The notes under the pieces were generated by a model, which saw nothing but the letters and a program-made list of their open reading frames with translations, made no database searches and was not told the DNA's origin. From Pedobacter sp. MR2016-24 (GTDB taxonomy: Bacteria; Bacteroidota; Bacteroidia; Sphingobacteriales; Sphingobacteriaceae): a DNA stretch of 64,000 nucleotides. Position 1 is the first letter of the stretch. The number at the start of each line of letters is the position of its first letter. The position numbers were made by a program, and so were the translations under genes. The stretch is taken from the NCBI RefSeq assembly GCF_026239655.1, contig NZ_JAPIVO010000002.1, forward strand, positions 310,001 to 374,000, given 5' to 3'. Positions 53,311-60,521 of the stretch are shown here, piece by piece.

Positions 53311-55323
53311 ATGAAAGCAGTACCAAATAATCTGATCAATGCCTCATCCCCATACCTTTTGCAACATGCTTATAATCCTGTTGAATGGTATGAATGGGGT
53401 GAGGAAGCATTATTGAAAGCAAAGCAGGAAAACAAACTGATCCTGGTCAGTATAGGTTATTCTGCCTGTCACTGGTGCCATGTCATGGAGCGCGAAAGTT
53501 TTGAGTTGCAGGAGGTGGCAGAAGTGATGAACAAACATTTTGTTTGTATCAAGGTAGACAGGGAAGAACGGCCTGATATTGACCAGATCTATATGACGGC
53601 AGTACAACTGATGACTGGCAGCGGAGGCTGGCCACTCAACTGTATTTGTTTGCCAGACCAGCGCCCAATCTATGGTGGAACTTATTTTAAGAAAGACGAT
53701 TGGATCAATATATTGATAAATGTTGCAGATCTCTGGGAAAATGAACCGGAAAAGGCAGAACAGTATGCAGAAAGGCTGACTGATGGTATACGCAGTGCAG
53801 AAAAAGTGATTCCTAATATCCAGACACAACCTTATAATGCAGAAGATCTTAAAGATATTGTTATCCCATGGAAGGGAACTTTCGATTTATCTGATGGGGG
53901 TTATAACCGGGCACCAAAGTTTCCTTTGCCCAATAACTGGCAGTTTTTACTGCGTTATGGTCACCTGATGAATAACCAGGTCATCCAGGGAGCTGTGCTG
54001 ACTACTTTAGAAAAGATGGCATTGGGCGGAATTTACGACCAGCTTGGTGGAGGTTTTGCCAGGTATTCCGTAGATGCGCAATGGCATGTCCCGCACTTTG
54101 AGAAAATGCTGTATGACAATGCTCAGCTGGTTAGCTTATATACCGAAGCGTATCAGTATAGTGGAAATGTAATTTTTAAGGAAGTTGCAGAAGAGACGAT
54201 GCAATGGCTGGAAAGAGATATGACTTCTGCGGAAGGATTATTTTATTCCGCACTGGATGCAGATAGTGAAGGTATAGAGGGTAAGTACTATGTATGGGAC
54301 CTGCAGGAATTTGAGCAGATACTGGGAGAAGACGCGGCCTTGATGGCCGATTATTTTACGGTTAGTACAGCCGGCAACTGGGAGGAGGAAGAAACCAATA
54401 TCCTGCTGAGACGAAAAACCGCTACTGCCTTTGCAGACCTTAAAGGTATTCCGCTGGAAGAACTTCATTTAAAAATCAGTCGGGCTAAAGAAAAATTGCT
54501 TGAGGTACGAGATAAGAGAATCAAACCCGGACTGGACGATAAATGTCTGACGGCCTGGAATGCGATGATGATCAAAGCACTTGCAGAAAGCAGCAGCGTA
54601 TTTGGAAATGAATCATATTATTTGTCAGCTAAAAAAGCCGCGGCTTTTATACTTTCAGATCTGACGACCGCAAAAGGCGGTCTGTTCCGTAACTACAAAA
54701 ATGGAAAAGCTTCAATCACCGCTTTCCTGGACGATTATGCCTTTTTTATCGCTGCATTGATCGCCTTATATGAAGTAGATTTTGATGAAACCTGGTTGTC
54801 AGAAGCCAAAAAACTGACTGAATATGTATTAACGAACTTCAGGGATCTGGATAGTCCGATGTTATTTTATACGGCCGCCAACGGAGAGAAGCTGATTGCC
54901 CGTAAACATGAAATTATGGATAATGTAATTCCTTCGGCAAATTCTGTGATGACGCAGAATCTGAAACATCTGGGTTTGTTATTTGATGAAATCAGATTTC
55001 TGGATAAAGCCGAAGCAATGCTGGCCGCGGTTTTCCCCCAGATCAAAACCTATGGCTCTGCGTATTCCAACTGGGCCATACAACTGCTGAATGAGGTTTG
55101 CGGAATAAATGAAATCGCGCTGACGGGTGATTCCGCACTAAAAATGCGGAAAGAACTGAGTAAGAGCTATATTCCAAATAAAATAATATTGGCAGGAACA
55201 AATTCTTCACTTCCTTTGTTAAAAGATAAGCAAAGCATTGAAACAAAAATCTATATTTGCCGGAATAAATCATGTCAGCTGCCTGTAACAACAGTTGAAG
55301 AAGCATTAAAATTAATTAACTAA
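53311..55323 (+). CDS. Thioredoxin-domain protein of the YyaL/SSP411 family
   Basis: 670 residues. An N-terminal thioredoxin-like domain (DUF255) with [15 protein letters not shown] and the CxxC site in [14 protein letters not shown], then [13 protein letters not shown], and a C-terminal (alpha/alpha)6-barrel region (about 230-560, [28 protein letters not shown]). Homologous to human SPATA20. The biochemical role is not known. The FKBP gene follows after 11 bp. Confidence 0.9.
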
Positions 55324-55334
55324 ATAAGATTCCA

Positions 55335-55835
55335 ATGAGTATTAAACCCAATACAGTAGTTTCATTAACGTACGAATTGCATACGACTAATGAAGAGGGA
55401 CAACAAGTTTTCGTAGAAAAAGCTGATGAGCAAAACGCATTGGTCTTCTTATACGGTACAGGTATGATGTTACCTAAATTTGAAGAGCATTTAGCTGGAC
55501 TGAATGTAGGTGATGAATATAAATTTGAGTTAAGCGCAGCTGACGGTTACGGAGAAAAAGATCCGGGAGCTTTTGCTGACTTGCCAAAGGATATGTTCAA
55601 AGAAGTAGATCTGCCGAATGTTGGTGACGTTATTCCGCTACAGGATAATGAAGGTAACCACTTCAGAGCTGGTGTAACTGCGATTCATGACGAGACGATC
55701 TCGGTAGACTTAAATCACCCGATGGCTGGTAAAAACCTTATTTTCGGTGGTACTATCCTTGCTGTACGTGAGGCAACTGAAGAAGAATTAAGTCACGGTC
55801 ATGCACATGGTGCAGACGGACACGCTGGACACTAG
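55335..55835 (+). CDS. FKBP-type peptidyl-prolyl isomerase, SlyD-like
   Basis: 166 residues. The FKBP fold with an inserted IF chaperone domain is recognisable: NTVVSLTYELHTTNEEG, FLYGTGMMLPKFEEHLAGLNVGDEYKFEL, then DGYGEKDP and VDLNHPMAGKNLIFGG. It ends in a His-rich tail (HGHAHGADGHAGH), which in SlyD binds Ni or Zn. It isomerises prolyl bonds and chaperones proteins in the cytoplasm. It lies next to the metal regulon, though on the other strand. Confidence 0.9.
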   Translation: MSIKPNTVVSLTYELHTTNEEGQQVFVEKADEQNALVFLYGTGMMLPKFEEHLAGLNVGDEYKFELSAADGYGEKDPGAFADLPKDMFKEVDLPNVGDVIPLQDNEGNHFRAGVTAIHDETISVDLNHPMAGKNLIFGGTILAVREATEEELSHGHAHGADGHAGH

Positions 55836-55927: not shown

Positions 55928-56377
55928 TTATTTCGATACCATAACACTGCACTTCTCACAAATGCCGTAAGCAGTAGTATGCATCGTTGCAGCAGTAAAA
56001 CCCTGAGGCATTTTTATCTGCGGTAGCACTACATCCAGGCAATATATTTTTGTACAATTGGTACAGTTGAAATGTACATGCTCATCATGGTGATGGTCCT
56101 CGGAGCAGGAAGATGAACAAATAGCATAATTTGCCGTCCCGTTCATATCCATTATTCTATGCAGAATCCCCTTATCCTCATAAATATTCAGTATCCTGTA
56201 TAAGGTTACCCTGTCTATCTCTTTACCCAGCTTTTTCTCCAGCTCTGGCTGTGAAATGGCCACGGTATCCAACGCAATCTCTTCTAAAACACGGATCCTT
56301 TGTTTGGTATGTTTAAGGGAATGCTCTTTTAGTATATTAACCGGATCGATAGTCATATTATTGGATTGATTTTGCAT
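55928..56377 (-). CDS. Fur-family metalloregulator, probably Zur
   Basis: 149 residues. Winged-helix part (about 10-80: LKHTKQRIRVLEEI, ISQPELEKKLG, DRVTLYRILNIYEDKGILHRI), then the dimer/metal domain. Structural zinc ligands are CTNC (105, 108) and CEKC (140, 143); the regulatory site is HHHDEHVHF (95-103). Its operon (ABC transporter with His-rich loop, secreted CxxC protein) and the divergent CobW gene point to zinc sensing; iron is less likely. Last gene of the operon, overlapping the preceding gene by 20 bp, so it should regulate itself. Confidence 0.88.
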   Translation of the reverse strand: MQNQSNNMTIDPVNILKEHSLKHTKQRIRVLEEIALDTVAISQPELEKKLGKEIDRVTLYRILNIYEDKGILHRIMDMNGTANYAICSSSCSEDHHHDEHVHFNCTNCTKIYCLDVVLPQIKMPQGFTAATMHTTAYGICEKCSVMVSK

Positions 56378-56831: not shown

Positions 56832-58121
56832 CTAGTTTTTGGACAGTATTTTTGAAATATTGGATCTGTACGCCTGCACCGCAGGTATAATGGCTGCAAA
56901 TATACCAATCGCCAGCCCTGCAACAAATAAATATATCTCCGTACCAAGGAAAATCAAACCACTTAAACGGGCCTGACTGCTTTCCTGGTATGCGCCAATA
57001 AACTGCAGGACAAGGTGACCTAATGCAATGCCAATAACTGTACCAGCGAAAGTTAAAAGTATCCCTTCAAATATAATAATCTGAAATAACTGCCCCCGGG
57101 AAGCACCAAGCGTGCGCATGATAGCAAGATCGTAATTACGTTCTTTTAGAGAATTATAGAGATTAACGAATACACTGATCGCAGCAATGAGCATGATGAG
57201 TATAGCAAACCATTGCAAGGTATCGACCCCTACGCCAATTAATGAGAATAAACGTGTGCTCTCCATCGCGGGAGAGGCGGCTTGCAGGGCAGTAGACTGG
57301 TTTACCATTCTTGGAAACATCACTACAGACATAGGTGACCTGTACTGTATCAGTAAAGCGGTAATCTCTCTTCCACTATCCGCTCCACCCTGGTCAGGCC
57401 TTGTCTCCTTCTCATGATCTCCTGTTTCTTCCTGTTGCTGACCTTCTGTTTTTTCATGGTGATGTGCTGATCGCTGATGTTGTTCCGTAGCTTCCTCTTT
57501 TTCATGATCGTCATGCATTCTCCATACACTTGCGATATTGGTGAGAATCAGGTTATCTGTCACATTGCCCTGAGGTGTTAAAATGCCGGCTACCTTATAG
57601 GCATGAGTTTTATGGACGTCCGTACTGCCGGTTAAACCATGGGCACCGAAAAAAGTATCTCCGATTTTAAGTTTTTTGGTCGCTGCAACGGTCGCCCCAA
57701 CGGTGACTTCGAAGTCGGCCGACCAGAACTTTCCACTGCTTGTAGTTAGTTTATATACACGCACAAAGTTGCTGTCTGTACCTACAATCCTGATCCCTTC
57801 GTAATTGTCGCCCTGCGCCAGTGGGACCGCTCTTTTAACGAATGGGCTATGTGAAAGCTCCTGTGCATCTTTCAAAGGAATGTTGCCCGTAGGAAAGTCT
57901 ATATAATAAATACTGCTCAGGATCAGTTGCAGCGGACTCCCTTTGGCGCCCACTACCAGGTCAATATCTTTTGAATTGTTATCTAGTTTCTGACTGATCT
58001 GTGTGGATGCCAGTAGCAAAATGGTAAGGATACCTGTACCAAACGCAATGAGCATGATATTTAATGCGGATGACAGCGGTTTAGACCATAAACTTTTCCA
58101 GCTGATTTTTATAGGGCTCAT
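56832..58121 (-). CDS. FtsX/MacB-type ABC permease with His-rich loop
   Basis: 429 residues: one N-terminal helix (about 17-40), a large periplasmic domain, then three C-terminal helices (about 290-320, 345-370, 395-420) as in the FtsX/MacB permease fold. The periplasmic domain contains a long His/Glu/Gln-rich stretch (about 203-245, DDHEKEE, HQRSAHHHEKTE, GDHEKE) that looks like a zinc-binding loop. Its start shares one base with the ATPase stop (TAATG). With the ATPase it forms a metal-regulated ABC system. Confidence 0.87.
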   Translation of the reverse strand: MSPIKISWKSLWSKPLSSALNIMLIAFGTGILTILLLASTQISQKLDNNSKDIDLVVGAKGSPLQLILSSIYYIDFPTGNIPLKDAQELSHSPFVKRAVPLAQGDNYEGIRIVGTDSNFVRVYKLTTSSGKFWSADFEVTVGATVAATKKLKIGDTFFGAHGLTGSTDVHKTHAYKVAGILTPQGNVTDNLILTNIASVWRMHDDHEKEEATEQHQRSAHHHEKTEGQQQEETGDHEKETRPDQGGADSGREITALLIQYRSPMSVVMFPRMVNQSTALQAASPAMESTRLFSLIGVGVDTLQWFAILIMLIAAISVFVNLYNSLKERNYDLAIMRTLGASRGQLFQIIIFEGILLTFAGTVIGIALGHLVLQFIGAYQESSQARLSGLIFLGTEIYLFVAGLAIGIFAAIIPAVQAYRSNISKILSKN

Positions 58122-58788: not shown

Positions 58789-58823
58789 CAAAAATAGTAT
58801 TTGCAAGTCAATTGCAACTACTA
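58789..58823 (-). promoter_or_regulatory. Promoter and operator of the ABC/regulator operon
   Basis: On the minus strand TTG (58817-58815) - 18 nt - TATTTTTG (58796-58789), a full Bacteroidota promoter, about 42 nt before the ATG. A dyad TGCAAGTCAATTGCA (58802-58816) fills the space between the two elements; outer bases extend it (ATAGTA... and ...TACTAT, one mismatch). Bound repressor would block RNA polymerase. Binding by the Fur-family regulator of this operon is inferred. Confidence 0.7.
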
Positions 58824-58867
58824 TCTGTATCATCATATAAACAAAATTTTGATTTAAAATAAGTCTC

Positions 58868-58882
58868 CTGTCTGGTAGACAG
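58868..58882. repeat. Short inverted repeat in the divergent promoter region
   Basis: CTGTCT and AGACAG around a 3-nt centre, between the two operators. It does not resemble the TGCAAT dyads and may bind another factor or be chance. Confidence 0.35.
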
Positions 58883-58921
58883 ATAACGATACATTTTTTT
58901 GATTGTTGTAAAACATAAAAT

Positions 58922-58978
58922 ATAAATGCAATAGTATTGCATTTATGATCTAATCTGTATATTTGCAACTATATTGCA
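58922..58978 (+). promoter_or_regulatory. Promoter of the CobW-type gene with two operators
   Basis: TTG (58937-58939) - 18 nt - TATATTTG (58958-58965). A perfect 12-1-12 palindrome (58922-58946, core TGCAATAGTATTGCA) covers the -33 element, and a second dyad TGCAACTATATTGCA (58964-58978) overlaps the end of the -7 element and the start site. The ATG at 58986 follows closely. This is a classic Fur/Zur-type repression layout; the regulator identity is inferred. Confidence 0.75.
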
Positions 58979-58985
58979 TTAACGT

Positions 58986-60191
58986 ATGAAACAGAAATTA
59001 TTACCTGTAAGTGTGCTGAGCGGATTTCTTGGCAGCGGTAAAACAACTTTATTGAACCACATTCTCCACAATAAGGAGAATCTTAAGGTGGCGCTGATTG
59101 TGAATGATATGAGTGAGATCAATATAGACGCGCGAACTGTTGAGGGCGAAAATATATTGTCACGTACAGAAGAGCGGCTGGTGGAGATGAGTAATGGATG
59201 TATCTGTTGCACACTTCGTGAAGATCTGGTAGCCGAAGTAGAGAAGCTGGCCAGAGAAAACCGTTTTGATTACCTGATTATTGAAAGTACCGGTATCTCT
59301 GAACCGATCCCTGTTGCGCAAACGTTTAGTTATATTGATGAGGAGAAGGGAATCGATCTCAGCAAGTTCAGTCAGCTGGATACGATGGTGACTGTGGTGG
59401 ACTGCTTTAACTTTAAAAAAGATTTCGGTACGAGTGAGCTATTATTGGATCGCGACTGGGTAGATGATACTGCAGATCGGCGTACGATCGTAAATCTGCT
59501 TACAGATCAGATAGAATTTGCGAATGTAATTGTCCTCAATAAAATTGATTTAATCTCTGCAGACGATCTTAAATTGCTGAAAGCACTCATCAGCAGGCTG
59601 AATCCTTCAGCAAAGCAAATAGCGTCTTCTTTTAGTAAGGTTGATCTCAGGGAAATTCTCCATACCGGATTATTTGATTTTAACGAGGCTGCACAGGGCG
59701 CGGGCTGGATTAAAGAGCTGAGTGCTGAACATCAGCCTGAAACTGAAGAGTATGGTATCAGCAGTACAGTTTTTCGGTCCGCTAAACCTTTCCATCCGGA
59801 GCGCCTCTGGAACTATTTAAACCTGCAATTTCCACCTAATGTAATCAGAACCAAAGGTTTGTTCTGGCTGGCAGCAATGCCGGATGCCGCGCTTAATTTT
59901 TCGCAGGCAGGTGGCTCCCTGCGCGTAGAAAGTGCTGGCAGCTGGTGGGCTTCAATGGTATTAGCTGACCGTCTTAATGATATAAATTTCGTAGAAAACC
60001 GTACAGCTATAGAAAGCAGATGGGATGAGAAATTCGGCGATCGGCTAAATGAGCTGGTTTTCATTGCGCAGGATTTGAAAAAGGAAGACTTACATGCAGA
60101 GCTGAACGCTTGTTTATTAACAGATGTGGAGATAGACAACTACCACGATAAGAAAGATTTTATTAATCCTTTTGCGAATGTGATTCAGTAA
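58986..60191 (+). CDS. CobW/COG0523-family G3E GTPase (putative zinc metallochaperone)
   Basis: 401 residues. P-loop GFLGSGKT (13-20), the metal motif GCICC (C72, C74, C75), ESTGISEP and the guanine-specificity motif NKID; the C-terminal CobW_C domain covers about 265-385. It lacks a His-rich tail. COG0523 GTPases of the ZigA/YciC/ZNG1 type move zinc to client proteins when zinc is scarce. Its control by two dyads and its place opposite the ABC operon support a low-zinc function. Cobalamin genes are absent from the window. Confidence 0.9.
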   Translation: MKQKLLPVSVLSGFLGSGKTTLLNHILHNKENLKVALIVNDMSEINIDARTVEGENILSRTEERLVEMSNGCICCTLREDLVAEVEKLARENRFDYLIIESTGISEPIPVAQTFSYIDEEKGIDLSKFSQLDTMVTVVDCFNFKKDFGTSELLLDRDWVDDTADRRTIVNLLTDQIEFANVIVLNKIDLISADDLKLLKALISRLNPSAKQIASSFSKVDLREILHTGLFDFNEAAQGAGWIKELSAEHQPETEEYGISSTVFRSAKPFHPERLWNYLNLQFPPNVIRTKGLFWLAAMPDAALNFSQAGGSLRVESAGSWWASMVLADRLNDINFVENRTAIESRWDEKFGDRLNELVFIAQDLKKEDLHAELNACLLTDVEIDNYHDKKDFINPFANVIQ

Positions 60192-60214
60192 AAAAAGGGA
60201 GTAAAAATAATAGA

Positions 60215-60255
60215 TGCAATTTAGTTGCAGGTGTTAATGTGAATAGATATATTTG
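60215..60255 (+). promoter_or_regulatory. Fourth dyad and promoter downstream of the CobW gene
   Basis: Dyad TGCAATTTAGTTGCA (60215-60229, 6 of 7 arm bases match) contains the TTG -33 element (60225-60227), followed by 20 nt and TATATTTG (60248-60255). The layout equals that of the other two promoters. No ORF follows; the transcript would start near 60262 and end at the terminator at 60278-60327. Confidence 0.6.
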
Positions 60256-60261
60256 TTATTC

Positions 60262-60327
60262 ATTATTTAGTTGAGCAGAAAGCATTGCAACAGGACTCAT
60301 CACCTTATTGCGGTGCTTTCATTTTTT
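60262..60327 (+). ncRNA. Candidate small RNA under the metal regulator, about 66 nt
   Basis: It lies between a promoter (TATATTTG ending at 60255) and a strong intrinsic terminator. It has no ATG on its strand. Most of the RNA would be the terminator hairpin with a 17-nt loop (60291-60307), plus a short single-stranded 5' part of about 16 nt. Function unknown; both parts could pair with target mRNAs. Existence as a separate RNA is inferred. Confidence 0.4.
60278..60327 (+). terminator. Intrinsic terminator (CobW gene and candidate sRNA)
   Basis: GAAAGCATTGCAA (60278-60290) pairs with TTGCGGTGCTTTC (60308-60320) over 13 bp with two G-U pairs, loop of 17, followed by six T at 60322-60327. Confidence 0.85.
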
Positions 60328-60332
60328 AATAG

Positions 60333-60521
60333 CTACTCATTTTCAAGGAAATCTATTCCTTTTTGTGTAATGGTTGCTGAAGGATGTGCTTCATCATCGT
60401 GCAGAACTATATATCCCAGACTTGCCAGTTCGCTGTAAGTATCTTCCATGCCACCTAAAATTGAAGAGCTTACCTGTTGTTCAATTGACGCTAAAAGCGT
60501 CTTTATTTCTTCTCTTTCCAT
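60333..60521 (-). CDS. Small hypothetical protein, 62 residues
   Basis: A short acidic, mostly helical protein (MEREEIKTLLASIEQQVSSS...) ending in TITQKGIDFLENE, which recalls the wing and last helix of a winged-helix domain. No membrane segment. It starts 76 bp downstream of the ABC-F stop on the same strand, with a hairpin in between. Function unknown. Confidence 0.55.
   Translation of the reverse strand: MEREEIKTLLASIEQQVSSSILGGMEDTYSELASLGYIVLHDDEAHPSATITQKGIDFLENE

Follow-up and report, generated by a model that had tools for sequence, protein, structure and literature searches.

A conserved Pedobacter locus predicted to encode a Zur-repressed small RNA complementary to the start codons of two M28 peptidases

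Introduction

RyhB is a Fur-repressed, iron-sparing small RNA (sRNA) which ends in an intrinsic terminator, pairs with the start regions of metalloenzyme mRNAs, and acts with Hfq. The class of sparing sRNAs to which it belongs is covered in a 2022 review, the available text of which expects sRNA-dependent zinc-sparing responses to exist (PMC9294342). Table 1 of that review enters 'NR' (none reported) for a cognate sRNA of Zur, and lists metal-limitation sRNAs tied to metal sensors, namely RsaC of S. aureus (Mn), NikS of H. pylori (Ni) and s-SodF of S. coelicolor (Ni), all of which concern other metals. In the portion available of a 2016 paper on B. subtilis Zur, no evidence was seen there for a zinc-sparing response like the iron-sparing one of RyhB (PMC5007448). 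S. aureus, in which ten sRNAs change under metal starvation by calprotectin (excerpted text of PMC11253595), also carries RsaX20, an sRNA gene behind a Zur motif which is co-expressed with the Zur regulon; the likeness is one of description only, as RsaX20 belongs to a Firmicute, is called 'possibly associated with metal homeostasis', and is given no target in the sections available (PMC5826253). The small RNA s479 of Haloferax volcanii is likewise tied to zinc, and differs in being archaeal and CRISPR-Cas-linked; its deletion raises zinc importer gene expression (PMC8155600), so that its action is on uptake rather than on zinc enzymes. Among Bacteroidota, GibS of Bacteroides thetaiotaomicron is an sRNA from a genus in which no Hfq or ProQ homologue is obvious, and is comparable by description only: its context is metabolism, and the word zinc is absent from the text available (PMC7366714). 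No zinc-sparing sRNA was found among the titles listed in our search of the open-licence literature.

Here we analyze a locus of Pedobacter sp. MR2016-24 (the host) within a 64,000-nt stretch of its DNA (the window), for which a metal-repressed, RyhB-like zinc sRNA had been proposed, together with a guess at its novelty. The sequence comparisons reported below support the proposal, with the qualification that S. aureus RsaX20 provides an earlier example of a Zur motif before an sRNA gene. Like RyhB and its fellow iron-sparing sRNAs under Fur, the predicted RNA ends in an intrinsic terminator; it is further predicted to resemble them in having its promoter under a Fur-family operator and in pairing at the start region of metalloenzyme mRNAs. 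It departs from them in serving zinc instead of iron, in its Bacteroidota promoter, in lacking an Rfam match, in pairing across the AUG itself, and in carrying one seed at its extreme 5' end and a second in the terminator loop. It is RyhB-like by predicted function, not by homology: no family reached its gathering score when the 64-kb window was searched with Rfam, in which the lone match at E up to 1 was snR4 (E 0.77), and a known RNA family, including RyhB by homology, is thereby ruled out. We consider it probable, from sequence comparison, that the locus is a conserved gene for a 68-nt Zur-repressed RNA which is released at low zinc and blocks the start codons of two M28 peptidases.

Results

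Predicted promoter, operator, and terminator

The element occupies the interval between a zigA-like gene (58986-60191, +) and a convergent 62-aa open reading frame (ORF; 60333-60521, -), and comprises the following features:

60215-60229, unstranded: dyad TGCAATTTAGTTGCA with core TGCAA-N5-TTGCA, predicted operator of a Fur-family (Zur-like) repressor
60225-60227, + strand: -33 TTG, part of the dyad's right arm
60248-60255, + strand: -7 element TATATTTG, 20 nt after the dyad TTG, invariant in 13 of 13 homologues
60259-60272, + strand: TTCATTATTTAGTT, invariant RNA 5' end, predicted first seed (anti-start-codon)
60260-60327, + strand: predicted small RNA of about 68 nt, with a predicted start at about 60260 and its end at the T-run
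60278-60320, + strand: terminator hairpin, co-varying (folding and alignment of homologues)
60297-60302, + strand: TCATCA, hairpin loop, predicted second seed, unpaired and invariant in 13 of 13 homologues
60322-60327, + strand: T6 tail of the terminator (sequence)

These coordinates bear out most of the original prediction, which had placed a dyad after the stop of the CobW gene (60191), overlapping the -33 TTG of a TTG-N20-TATATTTG promoter, with no ATG after the start (there is none within 60260-60327) and a 13-bp terminator hairpin whose T6 tail ends at 60327. The layout proposed for the RNA also stood, while its figures, a start near 60262 and a length of about 66 nt, required correction. 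The Flavobacterium -7 element spans -12 to -5 in the available text of PMC6847099, and the -7 consensus is TANNTTTG (PMC6847099; PMC7366714, as excerpted); with this numbering the start falls at about 60260 and the RNA measures about 68 nt. The first base of TTCATTATTTAGTT then lies one before the predicted +1.

The folding energy of the hairpin is -20.3 kcal/mol (z -4.35, with 1 of 200 shuffles as low), its outer stem comprising 13 bp (60278-60290/60308-60320) to which 3 inner pairs are added. The 5' region is mostly unpaired, with a mean unpaired probability of 0.81 across the RNA's first 15 nt. A simple terminator scan of the window did not list the hairpin ending at 60327, in our reading because its loop and inner bulges lie beyond the rules of the scan.

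A shared dyad and a neighboring Fur-family regulator

The dyad belongs, as claimed for it, to the same class as three others at 58.8-58.98 kb. TGCAA-N5-TTGCA occurs four times in the window against a mean of 0.17 in shuffled sequence (none of 100 shuffles reached four), and all four copies lie within 58802-60229. The other features of this neighborhood are:

58802-58816, unstranded: dyad in front of the leftward cluster of ABC-transporter and Fur-family genes
58927-58941, unstranded: dyad upstream of zigA (pattern count)
58964-58978, unstranded: dyad overlapping the end of TATATTTG in the predicted zigA promoter
58986-60191, + strand: zigA-like COG0523 GTPase gene, predicted zinc chaperone (PF02492, cobW; PF07683, CobW_C)
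55928-56377, - strand: Fur-family regulator gene closing the leftward cluster, predicted from its context to encode Zur

The same dyad type is thus common to the promoter of the RNA, to zigA, and to the regulator's own cluster, and would serve as operator for the Fur-family protein encoded 4 kb leftward. Putative Zur sites ahead of COG0523 genes are familiar from a paper whose available text does not contain the word Bacteroidetes (PMC2770081). The zigA-like GTPase scores 533.9 bits against the ZigA model NF038288, under the curated cut-off of 600. In the 5.83-Mb host genome the exact dyad core occurs ten times, four of them at the zigA/RNA locus. A wide dyad regulon was considered and rejected: of the six exact dyads elsewhere, four lie inside an ORF (one of these also 73 nt before a divergent start), and the remaining two lie 31 and 97 nt before ORFs.

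The dyad might instead be the site of a second Fur-family protein, responsive to iron or peroxide, in which case the RNA would answer to another metal or signal and not to Zur. Two Fur-family genes of the host genome score over the cut-off, including the local one (PF01475, 34.9 bits against 23.1); a third match falls below it and looks BlaI-type. The local regulator scores 32.9 bits against the NCBIfam Zur model PRK11639 (cut-off 167) and 38.5 bits against the NCBIfam Fur model (cut-off 146), and, as these scores, both far below their cut-offs, separate neither Zur from Fur nor one sensed metal from another, it is Zur-like from context only. That context nevertheless makes a second sensor unlikely in our judgment: the dyads cluster at the zigA-like gene and before the cluster of the local Fur-family gene, and the candidate targets described below belong to a zinc peptidase family.

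Conservation across Pedobacter

When 60192-60335 was searched against 145 genomes of the genus, 13 of the 16 DNA matches (the host included) proved to be the same element. The pattern TATATTTG-N2..5-TTCATTATTTAGTT picks out the same 13 genomes, once each, and its reversed control none of the 145. Alignment of the 13 sequences shows the dyad arms TGCAAT and GTTGCA, TATATTTG, TTCATTATTTAGTT and the loop TCATCA to be invariant, with the TTG separated from the -7 element by N19 or N20 throughout. Conservation of the dyad and -7 element had been set as the test by which the prediction might fail, and that of the loop and 5' tail as a further check; all four are unchanged in these 13 genomes. The hairpin stem has changed by co-variation: 6 of its 14 pairs are changed on both sides, 93.9% of cells remain paired, and the co-variation score of the 13 sequences exceeds that of 500 of 500 shuffles (a version with 11 sequences was also run). 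Conservation is highest in the unpaired 5' end and the loop rather than in the stem, and the invariance of the 14-nt 5' end and of the loop speaks against the earlier suggestion that the promoter is a fossil.

Two models built from the element extended the family within the genus. Model R1, from which G020 (stem misaligned) and G076 were excluded, recovered one further, diverged member in G049, which has the dyad, promoter, hairpin and TCATCA loop; its matches in G053 and G065 were rejected for want of dyad and promoter. Model R2, from which G020 was again excluded, recovered another diverged member in G019, with 5' end TTTTCATCATTTAGTTTATAG and another loop. The G019 locus (L258, about 1501-1626) shows a dyad, a weak -7 box, the 5' end TTTTCATCATTTAG and a different hairpin, and by eye the M28 start of this genome holds TGATGAAAA, complementary to UUUUCAUCA of the RNA 5' end. 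Outside the genus, R2 matched 17 genomes of other genera (best E 0.0067), with no strong match (E under 1e-3) among 399 sampled genomes of the family; the five matches inspected (L261, L264, L268, L271, L275) are dyad promoters without the RNA. In a collection of named species the sequence pattern was found in 10 stretches, 8 of them from Pedobacter, and the Maribacter and Saprospiraceae matches were rejected by eye as lacking dyad and hairpin.

The DNA-search matches in G002 and G119 are not the same RNA. G035 (L030, 1501-1553) and G094 (L075, about 1501-1576) were likewise set aside, and retain beside the 62-aa gene only a hairpin remnant, with neither dyad nor promoter, which looks like the result of decay of the RNA gene; G035 has only a remote COG0523 match, and its M28 start lacks the complement. 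The 62-aa ORF of the host, convergent with the RNA gene, matches nothing in Pfam or NCBIfam, and a relative adjoins these remnants also.

A first candidate target following tatC

The search for targets which the original prediction had called for yielded two M28 peptidase genes. At the conserved 5' end, UUCAUUAUUUAGUUAA is complementary to UUAACUAAAUAAUGAA, which reads as a leader rich in A followed by a start codon, and the 16-nt complement TTAACTAAATAATGAA was fixed from the alignment ahead of the target search. Its single perfect site in the host genome is the leader and AUG of the M28 peptidase gene that follows tatC. With up to three mismatches the 16-mer shows no enrichment in the host genome (192 sites, against 218 for the reversed control), and the signal therefore lies in the perfect site. 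The host RNA is predicted to pair with this start at -19.6 kcal/mol.

Start-region duplexes were compared over 70 first-M28 starts, one from each of 70 of the 145 genomes (30 loci and 40 further ones); in this set the diverged G049 counts as a non-carrier, the misread start of G087 was left in, and G096, a carrier, is missing for lack of a full-length first M28. A duplex of -9.4 kcal/mol or better forms in 11 of 12 carriers against 2 of 58 non-carriers (G074 and G062, which reach -10.7), the remaining 56 non-carrier orthologues giving no match; the one-sided p for start-region duplexes in carriers versus non-carriers is 1.7e-7, kinship being ignored. The nearest relatives of the host protein (G035, G139, G115; 76% identity) have neither the RNA nor the complement. 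Carriers are spread over more than one clade of the M28 protein tree (5 changes, at least 4), from which the misread G087 row was dropped for the contrast test. Four independent contrasts are well supported, of which three or four go with the complement and none against; this is not significant, because four are too few. Complementarity to the two M28 start regions goes with presence of the RNA gene, within the limits that kinship sets on these statistics.

The carrier that fails is G076, whose first M28 start mismatches the invariant 5' end. In both G076 and G049 the M28 start CTGATGAAAAA pairs over 11 bp with the genome's own loop UUUUUCAUCAG, at -13.6 kcal/mol. G110, in which the RNA was not detected, has the same TGATGAAAA first-M28 start as G076. 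On the pattern of complementarity, we predict that pairing with the first M28 relies mainly on the 5' end as seed, and that the loop TCATCA, whose complement is TGATGA, is a second seed which would serve for the first M28 in G076 and G049, and for the second M28.

A second M28 peptidase

The 12-nt core ACTAAATAATGA has four exact sites in the host genome (three for the reversed control): the RNA gene itself, two M28 starts, and one site with only a 10-aa ORF. The second target protein is an M28 peptidase (PF04389, 6e-37), and the two targets score 113.9 and 127.7 bits against the Pfam gathering score of 21.3. The second matches the aminopeptidases 2ek8 and 1rtq at a distance, the latter a di-zinc enzyme, and their metal-site motifs align by eye. 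Zinc dependence of both proteins is predicted from their family, and by eye both starts are signal-peptide-like.

Loop and 5' end may both contribute at this gene. Thirteen carriers were compared with 9 of 15 non-carriers (the other six gave split matches), with p 0.0013 for the seed and 0.005 for the loop, both ignoring kinship. TGATGA is found at the second M28 start in 12 of 13 carriers against 2 of 9 non-carriers (Fisher 0.0015, rising to 0.0032 when G101 is omitted for want of a located start); the start in G017 has neither complement. In the cryoconitis group the leader TTAACTAAATTATGATGAAA places most of the 5'-end complement beside the loop complement. At the second M28 the sites do not run colinear with both seeds of a single RNA.

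Background of start-codon matches

It might be argued that the RNA is real and trans-acting, with its true targets elsewhere, and that its complementarity to M28 genes arises incidentally from A/T-rich leaders. The seed is itself A/T-rich, and of the 133 other host ORF starts 4 also reach -9.4 kcal/mol. These figures come from a background of ORF starts drawn from the window (62) and from loci (73), which is if anything too strict, as most loci were chosen for holding a near-match. Across the 134 distinct host starts the best duplex is that of the second M28 (-13.9, against a median of -4.6), and the first M28 start reaches -15.8 against the same median; TGATGA lies near the start in 5 of the 134. 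The host genome's four other M28 matches give no match (-2.7 to -6.5), as do nearly all of the non-carrier orthologues of the first target. Chance complementarity is on this evidence a rather improbable account of the M28 matches.

Other starts with complementarity were noted. An FKBP-like ORF with a His-rich tail (55335-55835, +) has a leader (55310-55335) which holds TTAACTAAATAA, complementary to the RNA 5' end; the duplex of -10.5 kcal/mol is the second best of the 134 starts, and this gene may be a further target. At L104 (about 1501-1516) in the host, a basic ORF of 61 aa has a one-mismatch 16-mer site, TTAACTAAATAAAGAA, a few bases ahead of its ATG. In G052 (L183, 1501-1512), a zinc-type alcohol dehydrogenase gene (PF00107) has ACTAAATAATGA at its start codon, and is a possible zinc target in one species. 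This and the other single-genome ACTAAATAATGA start sites (an AcrB-family gene in G015, a condensation-domain gene in G014, an alpha/beta hydrolase in G045) were set aside as targets, there being no recurrence in the exact-match list.

Relation to zigA

The element could also form the 3' end of the zigA mRNA, terminator included, its dyad and -7 box being a decoy or a weak internal promoter, and its hairpin without a role in trans, much as the original prediction had allowed. The distance from the end of zigA to the dyad is 1 to 59 nt in 11 of the 13 carriers and 238 nt in G017; as the scan lists nothing else in the interval up to the convergent gene, the hairpin is probably where zigA transcripts stop. 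The same RNA is nevertheless present without adjacent zigA in two genomes: G045, a carrier, has no zigA match in its whole genome, and in G049 zigA is on another contig than the RNA gene. In both, the RNA gene lies between an opposite-strand gene (MerC-like by eye) and an ABC-F gene, with an 84-aa ORF also in between in G049; an ABC-F gene stands beyond the RNA in the 64-kb window as well. The element is therefore not merely a zigA terminator. Its best-conserved parts, moreover, are the unpaired 5' end and the loop, which match M28 start codons. Conversely, a close zigA homologue is found in 71 of 145 genomes and any match in 75, the other 4 having a remote paralogue only; as the RNA is found in 13, most zigA carriers are without a detectable copy of it. 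Taken together, the terminator with a decoy operator is an improbable explanation of the locus. That the locus instead encodes a small protein, as some short intergenic transcripts do encode peptides, is scarcely credible for an RNA which has no ATG and in which two of the three frames meet a stop inside the first 20 nt (host and a cryoconitis-group sequence).

Discussion

The invariant parts of this RNA, its 5' end and its loop, are the same parts that fit the start codons of one enzyme family. Under zinc-replete conditions, repressor bound to the dyad would cover the -33 element and no RNA would be made; when zinc is poor, the RNA would be transcribed alongside the zinc chaperone. At two M28 zinc peptidase mRNAs, whose products are predicted to be secreted, the AUG would then be covered by its 5' end and loop, so that initiation would be blocked and zinc left to other proteins. 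Bacteroidota mRNAs lack Shine-Dalgarno sequences (PMC6847099, as excerpted), and covering the AUG would thus be a natural block on initiation. We infer that pairing of this kind represses M28 translation, and that the benefit would be zinc spared from two metallopeptidases while the neighboring zinc chaperone is made.

A bolder reading, toward which our confidence stops a little short of even, is that this is the first zinc-sparing sRNA, Zur-repressed and equipped with two anti-start-codon seeds, whose control of M28 has been kept while the seed in use was swapped. The same tentative reading would have the 5' end in use in most species, the loop in G076 and G049, and a rearranged 5' end in G019. 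The locus in any case offers a concrete candidate for a zinc-sparing sRNA, repeated over species and with named targets. If the prediction is true, it would constitute a Bacteroidota sRNA-target pair in which pairing falls on the AUG itself, and so could be used to ask how sRNAs act where mRNAs are without Shine-Dalgarno sequences.

Two minor observations concern the genes around zigA. The FtsX/MacB-type permease of the dyad-controlled leftward cluster (56832-58121, -) has by eye a His- and acid-rich insertion, which may bind metal. In other loci (L043, L049, L053, L059, L060, L061), the gene divergent from zigA is a small membrane protein, MerC-like by eye, and a dyad or near-dyad together with TATATTTG lies between the two genes.
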